Position numbers and translations under genes: made by a program
Shown: positions 7,962 to 62,891 of the stretch, piece after piece
Position numbering within the stretch: the stretch's first letter is position 1
Layout of the letters: every line of letters starts with the position of its first letter
Source of the DNA: Candidatus Endolissoclinum faulkneri L5
GTDB lineage: Bacteria; Pseudomonadota; Alphaproteobacteria; Thalassobaculales; Thalassobaculaceae
Assembly (NCBI RefSeq): GCF_000510265.1
Contig: NZ_CP006745.1
Span: 951,654-1,015,653, forward strand
Direction of reading: 5' to 3'
Length of the DNA stretch: 64,000 bases
The notes under the pieces: generated by a model
The model's database searches: none
What the model was told of the DNA's origin: nothing
The model's input: only the letters and a program-made list of their open reading frames with translations

Positions 7962-8014
7962 CAGTAGTATGTTATGCTTTCTTCCCAAAGAGAAGAAAGC
8001 ATAACATACTACTG
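7962..8014. repeat. Long perfect inverted repeat, 23-bp arms
   Basis: The arms 7962-7984 and 7992-8014 are exactly complementary around a 7-base loop (CCAAAGA). The arms have more G/C than the surroundings. The nearest upstream gene end (metA, 7170) is about 790 bases away and no U-tract follows, so it is not an ordinary terminator of metA. Confidence 0.93.
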
Positions 8015-23450: not shown

Positions 23451-23890
23451 AATAGTAGTACATATTTACTTGTTATTCAAAATTTTTTATTTTATCAATG
23501 ATAAGATCACTTTAATAGCTACAACAACTAACCAAAAATTGAATTATTATACCCAATCTGCTTAAGAAAAAGGGATTTCTATAATAATTTATTGATATTA
23601 AACAAATAATAATTATAATCAACTATAACTTTACAAAAAACAATTACTCTATTATAAAAGTAACCAATTTATTAGAATAATCAAAATAAATATTTTATAT
23701 AATATTTCAGTATTTTTAACGATCATATAATAAAAGAAGAAGATTTGACCAAAAGCACTCGAATATTTTTGATAAGGACAATTGCGCTAAACGCTATTCC
23801 TTCAATAGGAAGGCGGAATTTAGTATATAATCCAACATTGAAATGGTTTTAATTTACTCAGATTGACATTAAAGAATGTTAATCTTTAAA

Positions 23891-23942
23891 CATAAGGTCA
23901 TCATAACTAATATCAATTGATATTAGTTATGATGACCTTATG
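23891..23942. repeat. Perfect 52-base palindrome
   Basis: Bases 23891-23916 are followed with no loop by their exact reverse complement at 23917-23942 (outer ends CATAAGGTCATC and GATGACCTTATG, centre TCAATTGA). It lies about 140 bases beyond the stop codon of rfbC. No T-run follows on the minus strand, so it is not a standard terminator. Confidence 0.93.
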
Positions 23943-24083
23943 TAATAACATTATTAATAAGTTTTGAAATAGGTCAATCATCCTTTTGCGTTACACACGC
24001 TATCAAGTAGACAAACACGATGACCAAGCAATTTAAGCATCAAAATTACGCGATTTAACTATTAACTAATGGTTATTCAAGAG

Positions 24084-49056: not shown

Positions 49057-50051
49057 TGATCCTGGCCCCCCAAGAGCTATCCCGCTCTGGCACTATAGTC
49101 AGTGTTGGATAAAGGGTCTAAAGAAAAGATATTTTAATAATATTATAGCGGGATCAAAGAACTGGATACAAAGATTCTTGATAAACAATAAACAGTAATA
49201 AACGATTAAACAAAAATTTGTAACTGTAAACAGCATGTAATCAAGTCAAGTAATTCCATACTACAAATGTAATAAAAATTAAATTTTTAAGATAAAAATT
49301 TTTATGAGTATAATGTCATTTTGACAAGACCTAGTATTGACATATATCCATTTAAAAAAGTTTGGCATTGGCGTAACCCACTGCTGAAGGATAGGAATTC
49401 TTTAACTATTTAGTATCTACTTACATGAATCCAAATCCGGCCAAATACTAAGTTAGCAATCATTACTTAGCTGTTGCGTAGTAATAAATGCCTAAGGATA
49501 CCAACAAAATCTACGCATCGATTAAATTGCTAAGCAAATCAATGATTAACTCTTGAATTCATTGGAATTAATCTTTACTCAACAGCATAATAATCCAGCT
49601 AATTTTTGAGATTAATCACACTTAGATGAATAGGTTTCAGGCAGCACAACTAAGATATTTCAAACAAAGAAACATGATATGCCTACGCTTAAGAAGGTCT
49701 CCGAAAAGTTTACTTAAGTCTCTAATTCCTATACCATTAGGACACCTTGAGAAATAGGCAACAACCAAATTTCATAATCTCCTCTAATAAGATACAAATA
49801 TTTAATTTATCAAAAGCCTCCTGACTAACACTTTACAGCAATATATTGCTGTAAAGTGTTAGTCAGGAGGCAGATTAAGCAAAAATTCATTATAATCAGT
49901 ATCATTATAACAAAGTCAACCGGTTAAAATTAACTGTAAGTTTCTTCAAAAGAACTTATCATAAACATCTAATCTCAATTCATAACATAAACACTTCAGT
50001 GCAAGATAATATACAAATCCTAAATCAAAATACCTGCTAGTACGATTTACT
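49057..50051. other. 1.0-kb gap inside the pst cluster
   Basis: Between pstS and pstC, both on the minus strand. It is gene-free, contains the 56-base perfect palindrome at 49816-49871 and an inverted TGTCA/TGACA pair near 49313-49325. Whether the pst genes share one transcript across this gap is unclear. Confidence 0.6.
49816..49871. repeat. Perfect 56-base palindrome in the pstS-pstC gap
   Basis: Bases 49816-49843 are followed directly by their exact reverse complement 49844-49871 (outer GCCTCCTGAC and GTCAGGAGGC). It is nearly half G/C within AT-rich DNA. It begins about 180 bases past the pstS stop. In RNA it would fold into a very stable hairpin that could separate pstS expression from pstCAB, but no T-run follows. 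Confidence 0.93.
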
Positions 50052-55819: not shown

Positions 55820-56911
55820 ATGCATATCAATAAGTCCATTGCTATGGCAATCATTTTAGTAGTTATCGCGATTGCCTGGATCATTTCTGGTCAAATATTC
55901 AATATAAGAACAACGATAACTCACCACGATGATAAGATCTCTGATTCGTTCACAAATACTTTAATGCGCGTTGGTATCAGTAAAACATCTGCCAGTGCAT
56001 TTATTCCTTCCATAATAATATCTGGACATACTGAAGCTGCGCGAATCATTACTCTGAAGGCTGAAACTGCTGGTCGAGTCGTAGCCACTCCAATATCAAA
56101 AGGATCAAAAGTCTTAAAAGGAGCAGAAATAGTACATATCGATGTATCTGATCGTAATGCATTAATGGATAAAGCTAATTCTCGCATTAGCCATCGTCAA
56201 ATAGAATACAACGTAACTTCTAACTTAGTAGCTAAAGGATTTAAAGCAAAAACAGCCCTGGTCGCTATTAAAGCTGAGCTAGATGCAGCAAAATCTGAAC
56301 GCCGAACGATTGAAATTGATCTTGAACGTACACGAGTACGTGCCCCAATTCGCGGCGTACTTAACGACCTTATGGTTGGAGTAGGAGACTATTTGACTGT
56401 GGGAGATGCTGTCGCAAAAATAATAGATCTTAATCCGCTACTTGTAGTAGCGCAGATCTCCGAACGTCAAGCGGCACTGATTGAAATCGGTATGTCAGCC
56501 CGTGTTCATCTGTCTACCGGAGCAAAGCTTACTGGCATAGTAAGCTATATCTCAAACGTTGCGGATGAGAAAACTAGAACTTTCCGTATTGAAATCAATG
56601 TTGATAATCCTGCCAGTAAATTTGGCCATGGCTTCACAGCAGAAATAAATATTGATTTACCATCAAAAAACAGTCATCGAATAAGTCCATCGATATTCCG
56701 ACGAGAAAAATTAGGACAATTGGGGGTGATGATCGTCGACAAAAATAATCAAGCTCACTTCATTCCAATCACAATTATAGGAACTGATGATAAGGGAACT
56801 TGGGTTAGTGGTCTGCCCAACAATACAAGAGTTATCGTCGTCGGGCAAGATATGGTCAAAGAAGGCGAGATCGTAGAACCAGTAGAAACCAGCAATGGAA
56901 CGATTTCATGA
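55820..56911 (+). CDS. RND efflux periplasmic adaptor (HlyD/MFP family)
   Basis: This membrane-fusion protein of 363 residues links the RND pump to an outer-membrane channel. There is an N-terminal membrane anchor at about 10-27. The lipoyl-like half-motifs are LKAETAGRVVATPISKGSKV (about residue 74 on) and VRAPIRGVLNDLMVGVGDYL; between them is a short helical hairpin of about 60 residues. The beta-barrel part contains RVHLSTGAKLTGIVSYIS and DEKTRTFRIEI. AGGA sits 9 bases before the ATG. The RND gene starts inside the last codons (ATGA overlap), so the two are coupled. No TolC-like gene is in the window. Confidence 0.93.
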   Translation: MHINKSIAMAIILVVIAIAWIISGQIFNIRTTITHHDDKISDSFTNTLMRVGISKTSASAFIPSIIISGHTEAARIITLKAETAGRVVATPISKGSKVLKGAEIVHIDVSDRNALMDKANSRISHRQIEYNVTSNLVAKGFKAKTALVAIKAELDAAKSERRTIEIDLERTRVRAPIRGVLNDLMVGVGDYLTVGDAVAKIIDLNPLLVVAQISERQAALIEIGMSARVHLSTGAKLTGIVSYISNVADEKTRTFRIEINVDNPASKFGHGFTAEINIDLPSKNSHRISPSIFRREKLGQLGVMIVDKNNQAHFIPITIIGTDDKGTWVSGLPNNTRVIVVGQDMVKEGEIVEPVETSNGTIS

Positions 56912-59900
56912 AAGCCTTAATTTCCTATGCTTTATTGCACAACAGAACCATATTATCTCTTCTTTTGCTAATCTTAATTGCTGGCAGCGCTTCTTATATA
57001 GCAATTCCGAAAGAGTCTGATCCTGACATCAATATACCAATAATTTATGTATCCATCACACTCGAAGGCATAGCGCCGGAAGATTCAGAGCGTCTTTTAT
57101 TACAACCTATGGAAGAAGAGCTTCGTGCTATCGCTAGCATAGAAGAAATGCGGTCAACTGCTTATGAAGGTGGTGCTAATATTACATTAAAATTCAATGC
57201 AGGTTTTGATCCTGTCCAGGCTATAAATGATGTCAGAGAGAAAGTTGATATTGCTAAGCTAGATTTGCCTAAAAATGCAGATGAACCGAGAGTGCATGAA
57301 GTCAACTTCTCACTCTTTCCAGTCTTAATTGTTACTTTATCTGGTAATGTTGATGAGCATATACTCCTGCAAACATCACGCAAACTGCAAAAGCTGGTGG
57401 AAGAGATTCCTTCAGTTCTTGCAGTCCATCTTGTCGGTTATCGTGAAGAAGCAATTGAAGTTTTGATTAATCCACTAGAACTAGAAAGCTACAATTTGCA
57501 AGCAAATGACCTGCTGGAAATCTTTCAGCGTTCAAACAACTTAATTACTAGCGCAGCTCTAGACAATGGTACCGGCCGCTTCCCTATTAAAATGCCAGGC
57601 CTATACCAGAATATAACAGATATTCTTAATCAGCCGATTAAAGCTAACGGAGATGCAATTGTTCGAATTCGCGATATCGGTACAGTTCATCGTAGCTTTA
57701 GGGATCGCCAAACCTATGCGCGTTTTAACGGACAACCAACAATTGCTCTCGAAATCTCCAAACGCTCAGGGCAAAACATCATTGATGCTACAGAGAATAT
57801 TCGTGCTGTAGTAAATAATGCAGAAAAAGATTTCCCGGCAGGGATCAGATTAAATTTTAGCCAAGACAAATCTAACAACATTCAAAATATGCTGAACGAC
57901 CTGCAAAATAATGTTATAACTGCCACTTTGCTAGTAATAACCGTTATTATAGGAGCCTTGGGTATTCGTAGCGCCTGGCTAATTGGCATGGCGATTCCTG
58001 GTTCATTATTGTTAAGTATCTTAGTGCTGTCTTCTCTGGGTATTACTATCAATATCGTTGTCTTGTTCAGCCTAATTCTAGCAGTTGGTATGATGGTTGA
58101 CGGTGCGATTGTAGTTACTGAATTTGCCGAACGCAAAATAATATCGGGTGTTAGTAGACCAAAGGCTTATCTTCTGGCTAGTCAGCGGATGGCCTGGCCA
58201 ATAATAACTTCTACTGCAACAACTATAGCTGCTTTTTTCCCATTGCTATTTTGGCCTGGTCTAGTCGGAGAATTCATGAAATTTTTGCCAATCACACTAT
58301 TAACAACATTGCTAGCTTCACTGCTAATGGCGTTAATATTTATACCAGCTTTAGGTGCACAAATTGGAGGAACGATTACCCTAAACAGTTCTTATAGTCT
58401 ACAGATTGCTGCTTCTGAAACTGGCGATCTAAATAATATCAAAGGCTTAACTGCTTGTTATTTAAAATTACTCAAAACTGCCTTACGCATACCTAAAATA
58501 GTTTTACTAATATCAATTGCAACTTTGATTGCAATTCAATATTATTATATCAGCTACGGTAAAGGAATAGAGTTCTTTCCTAATGTTGAGCCTGACAATG
58601 CTCAAATATATGTACATGCCAGAGGTAACCTTTCAATAGAAGAAAAACTTAGTCTTGTCCTGCCCGTCGAGCAGATAATTATGAAGTTAGGAGGGCTTAA
58701 ATCAATTTATACCTGTATAGGAGCAACTAAACAAAGTGAAGAAGGGGAGTTGTCTAACGACATAATTGGCAGCATCCAAGTAGAATTTATTGATTGGCAA
58801 CAAAGACTACCAGCTAAACAGATTTTAGCTAAGATTGCCAGACAGACTTCTAGTCTGCCTGGCATTGTTGTCGAGACGCGCACAGAGGGTAATGTGCTAA
58901 CAACAGGTAGTCCGGTGCAAATACAGCTTTATTCTAGAAATCGCGAAGCATTGGAAGAAGCAGCAAACGATATGCTAGCAAAGCTTCATACAATACCCGG
59001 TCTGCTAGCTCTGGAAGATACTCGTGATTTTCCAGGTATCGAATGGGAAATTAGCATTAATCGAGAAAAAGCCGCAATATATGCAGCTGATATGATGCTA
59101 ACTGGTCAGTACGTACAGCTGATTACCAAAGGATTAAAAATTAGCGACTATCGTCCAAAAGATAGTGATAAAGAGATCGATGTTATCTTGCGTTATCCAG
59201 ATTACTACAGGACTTTTGAGCAGCTCGATCAAACTCGCATGAAAACTTTAAATGGTCTAGTCCCAATCTCAAACTTTGTAGAACGTAGGGCTAAAGCAAA
59301 AATCGGTAAAGTACGTCGTATCGATACTTACCGAGCAATTACAATTAAGGCGGATGTACTAGATGGTGTACTGCCAAACGACAAAGTGATGGAAATACGT
59401 GATTGGCTTGTTAGCAAGCCGCTACCACAGAGTGTAAAAGTAGTCTTCAAAGGCGAAGAGAAGAAACAAAAAGAAGCACATAATTTTTTGATAAAATCAT
59501 TTGGAATTTCCATATTTGTCATGGCTATCATTTTGGTTACTCAATTTAATAGTTTTTATTCTGTCCTAGTAACTCTATCGGCAGTAGTTATGTCAACTAT
59601 TGGGGTAATGTTTGGATTAATAATTACCAAATCCCCATTCAGTATTGTCATGAATGGTATTGGGATTATAGCGTTATCTGGAATAGTAGTGAATAACAAT
59701 ATTGTGTTAATCGATACTTTTGACAAAATTAAGTCAAATTGCTCAGATACCAGAGAGGCGATCCTACGCACCGGAGCTCAAAGACTACGCCCAGTATTAC
59801 TTACTACTCTTACCACAATTTTAGGGCTGCTGCCGATGGTTATGCGTACTAATATAGACTTTATGTCACGCCACATAAATATCGGTGCACCATCCACTCA

Positions 59901-60021
59901 GATATGGGTATCATTAGCTAATGCTATTGTCTACGGACTGGCTTTTTCTACAGTGCTGACTCTATTAGTTACTCCATGTGCTTTGATCTTCAAAACTAGC
60001 ATAGATAAAAATATGCCATAA
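56908..60021 (+). CDS. RND-family efflux transporter (AcrB-type)
   Basis: This inner-membrane proton-driven exporter of 1037 residues has the usual duplicated topology: one helix, a large periplasmic loop, a helix bundle, then the same again. Landmarks are IPKESDPDINIPIIYVSITL near residue 34 and the helix 4 region AVGMMVDGAIVVTEFAER. Asp398 is kept at the first proton-relay position while the second position, Asp in AcrB, is Gly399; this is common in a widespread alphaproteobacterial RND subgroup. The gene is full length and one of the longest in the window. Substrates cannot be predicted: drugs, bile salts, lipids or host compounds are possible. Confidence 0.95.
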   Translation: MKALISYALLHNRTILSLLLLILIAGSASYIAIPKESDPDINIPIIYVSITLEGIAPEDSERLLLQPMEEELRAIASIEEMRSTAYEGGANITLKFNAGFDPVQAINDVREKVDIAKLDLPKNADEPRVHEVNFSLFPVLIVTLSGNVDEHILLQTSRKLQKLVEEIPSVLAVHLVGYREEAIEVLINPLELESYNLQANDLLEIFQRSNNLITSAALDNGTGRFPIKMPGLYQNITDILNQPIKANGDAIVRIRDIGTVHRSFRDRQTYARFNGQPTIALEISKRSGQNIIDATENIRAVVNNAEKDFPAGIRLNFSQDKSNNIQNMLNDLQNNVITATLLVITVIIGALGIRSAWLIGMAIPGSLLLSILVLSSLGITINIVVLFSLILAVGMMVDGAIVVTEFAERKIISGVSRPKAYLLASQRMAWPIITSTATTIAAFFPLLFWPGLVGEFMKFLPITLLTTLLASLLMALIFIPALGAQIGGTITLNSSYSLQIAASETGDLNNIKGLTACYLKLLKTALRIPKIVLLISIATLIAIQYYYISYGKGIEFFPNVEPDNAQIYVHARGNLSIEEKLSLVLPVEQIIMKLGGLKSIYTCIGATKQSEEGELSNDIIGSIQVEFIDWQQRLPAKQILAKIARQTSSLPGIVVETRTEGNVLTTGSPVQIQLYSRNREALEEAANDMLAKLHTIPGLLALEDTRDFPGIEWEISINREKAAIYAADMMLTGQYVQLITKGLKISDYRPKDSDKEIDVILRYPDYYRTFEQLDQTRMKTLNGLVPISNFVERRAKAKIGKVRRIDTYRAITIKADVLDGVLPNDKVMEIRDWLVSKPLPQSVKVVFKGEEKKQKEAHNFLIKSFGISIFVMAIILVTQFNSFYSVLVTLSAVVMSTIGVMFGLIITKSPFSIVMNGIGIIALSGIVVNNNIVLIDTFDKIKSNCSDTREAILRTGAQRLRPVLLTTLTTILGLLPMVMRTNIDFMSRHINIGAPSTQIWVSLANAIVYGLAFSTVLTLLVTPCALIFKTSIDKNMP

Positions 60022-61497
60022 AATACAGATTTGCCTATCTAAGCTAGATTAAGTATTACATTAATTATGGTACACTCGATAAGTTGATTAAAATCATAAT
60101 CGTATTCTGACTATAAGCTTCTATAGCTTGTTACAAGTATAATGCAATAAAGTATTAAATACAATCAGCAAAAGTCTTTAGTTGTGATGCGATATTTTCA
60201 GAGTAATTGTACCTAAGTCAGTTAAAGTATAGCTATATTGCAATTAATTACGGCTTAACGTTTATAGTTTGTATTATAAAATAAGAATATAATCATAATT
60301 TATTTTATTAAAACAACTTTTAGAACACTAATTGTATCTATCTTAACACTGAAGATAAAGAATCAGGCAGTATATTCATTTTTAGTGTATGAACTATAAT
60401 TCATTTTCAACATTAACCTGTTATCTAAAGAATAATAGATTCAATCTATTTGAAATATTAGAATAAAATAGCTAGTAGTTAAACTAGTAGTTAGTTTAAT
60501 TAAAGCATTTAATCAAGCTAACTGTCATTCTAATAACAATTTAGATTCATTTTATTTATCAAATAATCTTCCAGCTAAACCCCAAGGCTATGAGCAAATG
60601 TAATTTCGCGATTATAGTTGTAAAAAACAGCGTCAATTAACTTTATGACATACATTGCTAACTTTAAATCGCCTACAATATAATCAAAAGCAGATTCAAC
60701 TATTAATTGAATCTGCTTTTGATTATATTGTAGGCGATTTAAACAGCTAGATTCTAGCTAAAAATAATCTATATCTATAAGATTATGTAATTATCATAAT
60801 TAAAACAAGTAATTAAGATCCATAATAAAAGAAAATAATAGTGCTACTAATTATAGAGTAAAAACATAACACTACAAATTCGGTGCATAGAAAAACAAAA
60901 AATCAATAAAATTAACCAACTTTTTTATAAAAAATGATAATTTAAAAAAATTTTTAATGAATTATTCTTAACCTAAGAATAAAATGTAGATTGGCATTTT
61001 GCTAATTTATAATAAAATAATAAGTTAAAATTTATTAGACAAGTATTCCATTTAACGGAAATGCCCAGTATTTATTTTTACCAGAAAAGAAATAAGATTT
61101 GCCTCTTCACCAAGAGTTCATATAATTTTTTAGTGTCTTAAAAGAGTAAGCGATATAATCTAAGCAGATTAATTTTTTAAAAATATATTTTTTACTTAAA
61201 AAGTAACTATAATAGTGTATTATAAATTAAGTTGTTTTACTAAAAATTAGTAATTATTTATTCAGATAATATATCAAGGTACATGACCTAATATTCCTGC
61301 AATAACAAAACAATCATATACTACAAATTATTTTTAGTGATAACCCGTATTGACTTACATTATATTTCTATTAACACGATTATTAATTCCGAACTACTTA
61401 ATTCCAAGTAAAATTAGGGATATTCATCTTTACAAGATAGTGCTAGAAAAGTAGCTACTCACTTCATTATGTAGATTGCTAAATTATTGAGATTAAA
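60022..61497. other. 1.5-kb gene-free stretch between convergent genes
   Basis: It contains the longest inverted repeat of the window (60663-60743) and a small hairpin at 60962-60982 (TTATTCTTA/TAAGAATAA). No coding remnant is recognised. Confidence 0.65.
60663..60743. repeat. Very long perfect inverted repeat, 37-bp arms
   Basis: Arms 60663-60699 and 60707-60743 are exactly complementary over 37 bp around the 7-base loop CTATTAA (outer ends TTTAAATCGCC and GGCGATTTAAA). It lies between convergent genes, about 640 bases past the RND stop and 755 bases past the phhB stop, too far for an ordinary shared terminator. No protein-coding content. Confidence 0.95.
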
Positions 61498-61803
61498 TTA
61501 AGCTAATTTGATGTGAAATGCTATTAAATCCATGTAATTAGCCAATTCGATATCCAGATCTGTTACTCCGCCAATAGTATGCGTACTAAGTTCAACCACA
61601 ACCTTATTATAAGAATTTGACCAATTTGGATGATGATTCATACTACAGACTTTAATAGTTACCTTAGTCATAAACCTCCATGCATCATCAAAGCTATTAA
61701 ATTTAAAGGTCTTGATGATCGCACTAGCATCATTCTCTTTAATCCACCCATCCATGGATGCAAGGTAGTTATTAATCTCTTTAACACTGAGTTTCTCTAG
61801 CAT
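61498..61803 (-). CDS. phhB: Pterin-4a-carbinolamine dehydratase
   Basis: It dehydrates 4a-hydroxytetrahydrobiopterin or a related pterin. This small enzyme of 101 residues has the diagnostic block NHHPNWSNSYNKVVVELSTH with the catalytic histidines His57, His58 and His75, then GGVTDLDIELA. AAAGGGAAT lies about 11-12 bases before the ATG. No phenylalanine hydroxylase is near. In many bacteria this protein has other roles, for example in molybdopterin or folate metabolism, so the pathway here is open. Confidence 0.95.
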   Translation of the reverse strand: MLEKLSVKEINNYLASMDGWIKENDASAIIKTFKFNSFDDAWRFMTKVTIKVCSMNHHPNWSNSYNKVVVELSTHTIGGVTDLDIELANYMDLIAFHIKLA

Positions 61804-62891
61804 TATAGGATTATTCCCTTTTTAAATTTTACTATTTTAAACGTAAAGGCTAAAATTCTTTTTAAATTTGTTAAAGTAATAAGATAAAATAATATCACTC
61901 GCTACGGTAATGTCTTTATTATTTTGATTGAAATAATGGCTAGTTGAATAAACAAAATGCTTGATTTTATTTATTCATAATAGAGTGTTAGAAATTTAAC
62001 CAATGAATATGATGTTTTATATCATAGCCTGACTTATAAAAGTTCATTAATCGATAATGTTTTACAAACAAGTAATGCGCTATTTGTTACTAAAAATCAA
62101 AGATAAATTAACAATTTATTAAAAAACTAATAGTTATAGTCAAACGATTTAATTGGCAATGTTATTATAAAAATAATTTTAAATATAGCCTTTATGTTAC
62201 TATAAAGGTAACAATTTCTTTCAGAAAGCCAATATTCTTGTTAATATCAATAGTTTAATTAATAGTTAACAATTAATAAATAAAGGCTTTTTAGCTTTTT
62301 ATATAATAGTAACGCTGATACTAGAGTATAACAGTAAAAGTAAATACTAGAAAAACAGCAAAGTTTTGCGGCTTACACTTTTGCTATTGTACTTAAAAAT
62401 TATTTAAGTTATTTGCCTAGATTACTAATTATGATTTCAAGCGATATCTTGATGCTTAAGAAAGCAAGATATTAAGCAATATGGTTGCAAGCATCTAAAA
62501 TGCTTGCTAACTTTTAAATAATTAAAATGCTTCGGTAATAACAGCAATATTAATGTGTAATAATTATACTATTTATTTTTGATATTATTATCAATTAGCA
62601 TAAATTTATTATTGATTTTTATTAACTAAATCCATCAAAGAATGTTTAGTGCTAACGATAAGATTCTTTCTAAGAATGCTAAAACTTTATTACTGACAAA
62701 CAATATTGACTATGATACGTTAGGAATTGATAATTGTTTTGTTTTTGTAGTTAGTTGATTATTCATAGCAACTAAATGACAGTTTTCTGCTATTTAAAAT
62801 TAACTACGCAACATGTCGTGCGTGGTTTTTTATGTTGTCCCTTTAGGCAGCAAACTTTCTCCTTAAAGAGAAAGGGGTTATAGCTGCGCTT
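61804..62891. other. 1.1-kb stretch with two hairpins at its right end
   Basis: Mostly featureless AT-rich DNA, with a hairpin at 62487-62507 (GCAAGCAT/ATGCTTGC) and the terminator-like structure at 62802-62832 just before the next gene. No coding remnant is recognised. Confidence 0.6.
62802..62832 (+). terminator. Rho-independent terminator or attenuator ahead of the zincin gene
   Basis: AACTACGCA at 62802-62810 pairs with TGCGTGGTT at 62819-62827 (one G-U pair) around ACATGTCG and is followed by a run of T to 62831. It is a classical terminator, yet 60 bases ahead of a gene on the same strand and with no gene upstream for a kilobase. A second short hairpin (CTTTCTC/GAGAAAG, about 62856-62874) follows before the ribosome binding site. 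It is either a leftover from a lost upstream gene or a leader that controls the downstream gene. Confidence 0.7.

Follow-up and report, generated by a model that had tools for sequence, protein, structure and literature searches.

Introduction

Among the closest described counterparts of the hairpin analysed here is quasipalindrome mutation in Escherichia coli, which proceeds by template switching (PMC7202029) and in which an imperfect inverted repeat is made perfect by copying of an arm (PMC7202029, PMC6357072). A change of the same kind is seen below in the gcvP gene of a sister strain, but the E. coli cases were recorded with reporters in a host proficient in repair, whereas ours are dozens of hairpins along two chromosomes, among which the focal event is one that we infer. 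At genome scale, the nearest parallel is in the mitochondrial genes of Nematomorpha (hairworms), which likewise hold many perfect and few imperfect inverted repeats, gained and lost between relatives (PMC6649704). From this ‘binary’ identity the hairworm paper argues for arm conversion, and it refers to previous studies of quasipalindrome correction (PMC6649704). Those repeats, however, are found inside coding genes and can be as long as 284 bp (PMC6649704), whereas 16 of the 158 hairpins described here are centred in open reading frames (ORFs), the arms extend up to 41 bp, and the setting is a bacterial chromosome. Template switching has also been described as creating and maintaining RNA hairpins (PMC8794818) and, in yeast genes, as leaving homogenised arms (PMC8604942); as here, one event can give a perfect stem or compensatory changes. 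Both studies draw on ancestral reconstruction from many sequences, whereas our comparison uses two strains, with free-living outgroups for coding sites.

Candidatus Endolissoclinum faulkneri L5 is an intracellular symbiont of a tunicate, with a genome of 1,518,636 bases that is 55.6% coding and has noncoding DNA of 25.9% GC (PMC3851785). Of the 27 primers published for strain L5, six were placed on this genome, and each of them sits exactly at its published position (PMC3851785). The paper on the strains reports that recA is lost and mobile elements are absent, and mutSLH is also reported lost (PMC3851785); its main text contains no occurrence of ‘palindrom-’, ‘inverted repeat’ or ‘hairpin’. 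By the protein of the RND pump gene described below, the closest named relative is Thalassobaculum litoreum (69%). A sister strain (G005), the second small genome of the genus at 1,481,191 bases, is colinear with L5 across 25 aligned blocks (plus strand only). The mechanism that we propose is already known; what is new is a genome-wide hairpin load as its variant in this symbiont. Searches of open-licence papers turned up no description of a load of this kind, whether in Ca. E. faulkneri or in another reduced bacterial genome.

Results

The focal hairpin lies between convergent genes near the end of the window, by which we mean the whole 64,000-nucleotide stretch of L5 DNA that was analysed. 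Its setting is as follows.

56908..60021, + strand: RND pump gene (Pfam ACR_tran), ending 641 bases short of the hairpin
60022..61497: noncoding gap of 1,476 bases between the convergent genes, holding the hairpin
60663..60699, + strand: left arm, 37 bp
60700..60706: loop CTATTAA, 7 bases
60707..60743, + strand: right arm, the exact reverse complement of the left arm
61498..61803, - strand: phhB (Pfam Pterin_4a), with its 3′ end 754 bases past the hairpin

The original prediction of 37-bp perfect arms around a 7-base loop at 60663-60743 is exact in coordinates and sequence. The 640 and 755 bases that it gave as distances to the gene ends measure 641 (RND pump ORF) and 754 (phhB ORF), and its names for the flanking, convergent genes are those indicated by the Pfam matches. 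It further called the hairpin the longest example, which is true of the window as far as perfect arms are concerned. Across 904 kb sampled from the L5 genome, its arms rank second in length, behind those of the hairpin at 871528, where 41-bp arms enclose a 28-nt loop. When one mismatch is tolerated, the focal arms become 40 nt and the loop 1 nt.

Folded as RNA, the focal hairpin has a free energy of -59.8 kcal/mol (z = -14.9), and 0 of 200 shuffles were equally stable. It has no T-run, and terminator-like sites numbered zero in 59900-61900. Rfam gave no match at the hairpin, the sole gathering match in the window being a tRNA. A whole-genome search placed the sequence at a single site in L5 (on both strands, as a palindrome requires), and no match was found in the 40 other genomes searched as relatives. 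Perfect, closely spaced inverted arms built from local, non-repeated sequence are among the features expected of a template-switch product, and the focal hairpin has them. Taken alone, it is ordinary.

Hairpins like the focal one, perfect, with short loops and unrelated in sequence, form a class that extends across the genome. We surveyed this class, defined by perfect arms and a loop of at most 30 nt, in samples of 904 kb from L5 and 825 kb from the sister. Arms of at least 16 bp occur in 88 hairpins in L5 and 70 in the sister, and arms of at least 20 bp in 47 and 33, respectively. Four further members in the window are listed here.

7962..8014: class hairpin, 23-bp arms, loop of 7
23890..23943: class hairpin, 27-bp arms, no loop
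45247..45289: class hairpin, 21-bp arms, loop of 1
49816..49871: class hairpin, 28-bp arms, no loop

For arms of at least 16 bp, the density is 97.3 per Mb in L5 and 84.8 per Mb in the sister versus 8.6 per Mb in the controls, which include no decaying genome equally rich in noncoding DNA, so that noncoding DNA in general is only partly controlled for. The eight control genomes (1,051,786 bp) hold 9 such hairpins: three AT-rich genomes have none (G032, 29% GC, 240 kb; G026, 32% GC, 36 kb; G030, 36% GC, 39 kb), the free-living G003 has 4 in 400 kb, and the highest, G029, has 5 in 140 kb, or about 36 per Mb. Nine loci from named free-living relatives (135,750 bp) contained one hairpin. Order-3 Markov shuffles of the 904-kb L5 sample (n = 5) gave 23 hairpins with arms of at least 12 bp, 2 with at least 14 bp and 0 with at least 16 bp. 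The arms are local sequence and unrelated to one another, the best similarity among the 158 being 11-15 nt, and in 36 of the 158 hairpins the loop is 0-1 nt long.

The class avoids coding DNA: 8 of 88 hairpins in L5 (48.6 expected) and 8 of 70 in the sister (41.8 expected) are centred in ORFs of at least 100 aa. Median distances to the nearest gene 3′ end are 550 and 470 bases, those of points drawn at random from the same gaps are 628 and 507, and we found no excess of class hairpins within 60 or 100 bases of gene 3′ ends. Gap type does matter. Among the 134 of 158 hairpins that could be classified, observed versus length-expected counts are 70 versus 66.0 in tandem gaps, 46 versus 31.4 in convergent gaps and 18 versus 36.6 in divergent gaps (p = 0.00026). 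The class is therefore not neutrally spread, being short in divergent gaps and in surplus in convergent ones, which counts against a simple template-switch view. We read the divergent deficit as probable selection against hairpins near promoters and leaders.

Perfect arms far outnumber mismatched ones. Among hairpins with arms of at least 20 bp, those with 0, 1, 2, 3 and 4 mismatches number 44, 14, 4, 1 and 2 in L5 and 32, 5, 5, 1 and 0 in the sister, whereas perfect birth followed by neutral decay would, by our reasoning, give roughly equal counts in each mismatch class. Because of this excess of perfect arms, class hairpins appear to be young, quickly removed or renewed. G-T pairs make up 8 of 41 mismatches in L5 and 2 of 28 in the sister, counted on the + strand with gene orientation unused, and these counts give no sign of selection on RNA pairing. 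The focal hairpin would be young. Noncoding identity of mapped columns between L5 and the sister is 0.765, and the chance that all 74 focal arm sites stayed unchanged since the strains split is about 3e-5 by a Jukes-Cantor estimate with equal branches and aligned columns only; the same estimate dates the making or last renewal of the hairpin to the latest 29% of the branch, at 95%.

At the focal locus, the alignment of L5 with the sister ends at the left edge of the hairpin, and neither focal arm matches the sister’s gap above shuffles. Loss in a related strain had been named as part of what would refute the original prediction; the sister indeed lacks the hairpin, and may either have lost it or never have had it.

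Clearer histories are visible at other loci. Within gcvP (NCBIfam gcvP, a 278-residue piece), the sister carries a 16-bp perfect hairpin (L115:7826-7863). L5 and the sister differ at three arm sites, every one in the same arm, and in the sister’s hairpin all three are the complement of the opposite arm. One of these differences changes Ser to Thr; because L5 and all three matching free-living genomes (G004 had no match) have Ser, at least one change occurred in the sister. The hairpin at 7962-8014 of the window and its counterpart in the sister (G005:C1:938337-938374) have in common a 7-bp core, TTTCTTC/GAAGAAA, and have outer arms that differ by strain, as expected if each strain extended the core outward by copying a flank. 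The longest hairpin in the L5 sample (871528-871637; L194:11528-11637) and a hairpin in the sister (854375-854426) both start in the 3′ end of the same 378-aa ORF, presumably holB by its resemblance; the former has 41-bp arms and a 28-nt loop, and the latter has 26-bp arms and no loop.

Across the genome, a perfect hairpin occurs at the same place in both strains in 9 of 93 cases (L5 arms of at least 14 bp with a mapped centre, sister arms of at least 12 bp), whereas 100 shifted controls averaged 2.07 such cases and never exceeded 6. Among the nine is a perfect palindrome of 30 nt with the same sequence in each strain (L099:5113-5142 and G005:C1:287052-287081), inside a 313-aa ORF that we take to encode an ABC permease; it may simply be conserved coding sequence. 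Elsewhere, a hairpin at G000:C1:734044-734083 in L5 (L192) and G005:C1:719118-719151 in the sister is perfect in both, with paired changes on both arms. It lies just upstream of the MPELPEV start of an ORF that is presumably mutM-like.

Other comparisons with the sister bear against the simplest model. Because a single one-way copying event predicts differences in one arm, we compared both arms of hairpins in aligned blocks; in the 57 of 118 hairpins whose two arms could both be aligned, the sites that differed from the other strain were not one-sided, chi2/df being 0.77 and 0.81 versus control means of 0.95 and 0.84. The hairpins that qualified were 27 of 60 and 30 of 58, the rest being dropped for arm coverage under 0.9 or for having no differences. 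For the class as a whole, a history of one-way copying is thus not upheld. Gap-filled noncoding alignments are, however, weak evidence either way, because gap extension is cheap in the aligner and several alignments are scattered islands. Compensatory pairs were few (25 of 821 and 22 of 818). Pairing in the sister reached 64.4% and 62.5% versus 28.7% and 29.4% at shifted spots, which we estimate to be roughly what arm identity alone would give, and we therefore do not take it as a sign that structure is conserved.

The two symbionts share a set of missing repair genes. For each of xseA (ExoVII), mutS and recA, a match over the cut-off was found in neither of the two symbionts but in all four of the other genomes of the genus. 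The sister retains a mutS remnant (G005:C1:1004828-1004968; 47 positions, four stops), and no match at the same threshold was found in L5 (G000). Matches to recJ and addA exceed the cut-off in all six genomes, which rules out loss of RecJ or AddA as a cause of the hairpins. Loss of SbcCD is unusable as a cause, since a match over the cut-off was missing from every genome of the genus, also from those of free-living members.

Discussion

We consider it likely that the focal hairpin was left behind by template switching as the DNA was replicated, in a region under little constraint. Templated arm change is observed elsewhere in both strains, and by analogy with those loci the focal hairpin would have the same origin. 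In the proposed sequence of events, the growing strand would stall at a short or imperfect inverted repeat and copy a nearby strand over a few dozen bases, leaving a perfect mirror copy beside the first arm; the route could be quasipalindrome correction or inverted copying from scratch. Such a hairpin could then persist, as the symbiont’s intergenic gaps appear to be under little constraint, and loss of ExoVII and mismatch repair may have raised the rate. That the hairpin could be a product of replication was part of the original prediction, and both the survey and the sister-strain comparisons support it. We retain template switching despite the lack of arm asymmetry because single, well-aligned cases show templated change and because the noncoding alignments are weak.

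The other half of the original prediction, that transcripts running this far would fold into a very stable structure in either direction, finds little support. The folding energy agrees with it, as does the excess of the class in convergent gaps, whereas the lack of a terminator-like site, of proximity to 3′ ends and of a G-T excess does not. A bidirectional terminator, an RNA-stabilising 3′ structure or an insulator separating the convergent transcripts of RND and phhB would account for a fold that is very stable on either strand and for the surplus of the class in convergent gaps and its deficit in divergent ones (p = 0.00026). Yet the focal hairpin stands 641 and 754 bases from the genes, has no T-run and lies in a region (59900-61900) with 0 terminator-like sites; the class shows no tendency to lie near gene 3′ ends beyond that of random points, and the focal hairpin is missing in the sister. 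Function of this kind is thus unlikely, and for a terminator or 3′-end element specifically we regard distance, the missing T-run and the lack of 3′-end clustering as decisive. Selection on pairing itself, as in a small RNA or a cruciform site, could explain the few places with perfect hairpins in both strains, one of which (at the mutM-like ORF) has paired changes. We nevertheless find this very unlikely, given that the focal counterpart is missing in the sister, that Rfam has no match, that G-T is not favoured among mismatches (8/41 and 2/28, + strand only, gene orientation unused) and that loops of 0-1 nt are found in 36 of the 158 hairpins.

An inserted palindromic mobile element (of the MITE, REP/BIME or Rickettsia palindromic element type) would fit the sharp boundary at which the sister alignment stops, namely the left edge of the hairpin. 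It is highly improbable for a sequence that has a single genomic copy, no match in 40 relatives and no flanking direct repeat beside its arms; the 158 arms form no families, and the strains’ paper reports no mobile elements (PMC3851785). Single copy and the lack of an arm family together lead us to discard a repeated or mobile element. Assembly is a further concern, as L5 was assembled from short reads with Velvet at k 61 and 67 (PMC3851785). However, the same class is present in the sister’s assembly, partly at shared places, the arms are shorter than k, and when the authors mapped reads they called 96 variant sites over the whole L5 genome (PMC3851785), all of which leaves an artefact with scarcely any probability.

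Template switching thus being the preferred reading, the genes lost by both strains suggest what could have favoured it. In E. coli, ExoI and ExoVII limit quasipalindrome template-switch events, and ExoVII is the most suggestive absence among the lost genes. Constitutive template switching in E. coli is high when recB is mutated but not when recA is, and SOS inducibility is anti-mutagenic (PMC6357072). Because recA mutants there lack high constitutive template switching, recA loss alone is no obvious cause. It is conceivable, although we hold the idea tentatively and with less than even confidence, that hairpins have become a self-renewing feature of the chromosome after loss of ExoVII, mismatch repair and RecA, with replication repeatedly copying one arm anew from the other and hairpins being born, renewed and lost at a rate like that of substitutions.

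More broadly, perfect, stable and even compensated intergenic stems in a reduced genome need not be functional RNA, a caution for the reading of such structures. Template switching is usually observed singly, in reporters or by ancestral reconstruction. The two colinear strains, which carry about 85-97 perfect hairpins per Mb (arms of at least 16 bp), constitute a data set on how hairpins start, grow, stay perfect and are lost, and the same data set bears on whether loss of ExoVII, MutS and RecA allows hairpins to build up. If self-renewal is correct, the Ca. E. faulkneri hairpins would be the bacterial equivalent of the hairworm mitochondrial palindromes, themselves unexplained, and would document in nature how template switching proceeds when its usual checks are gone.
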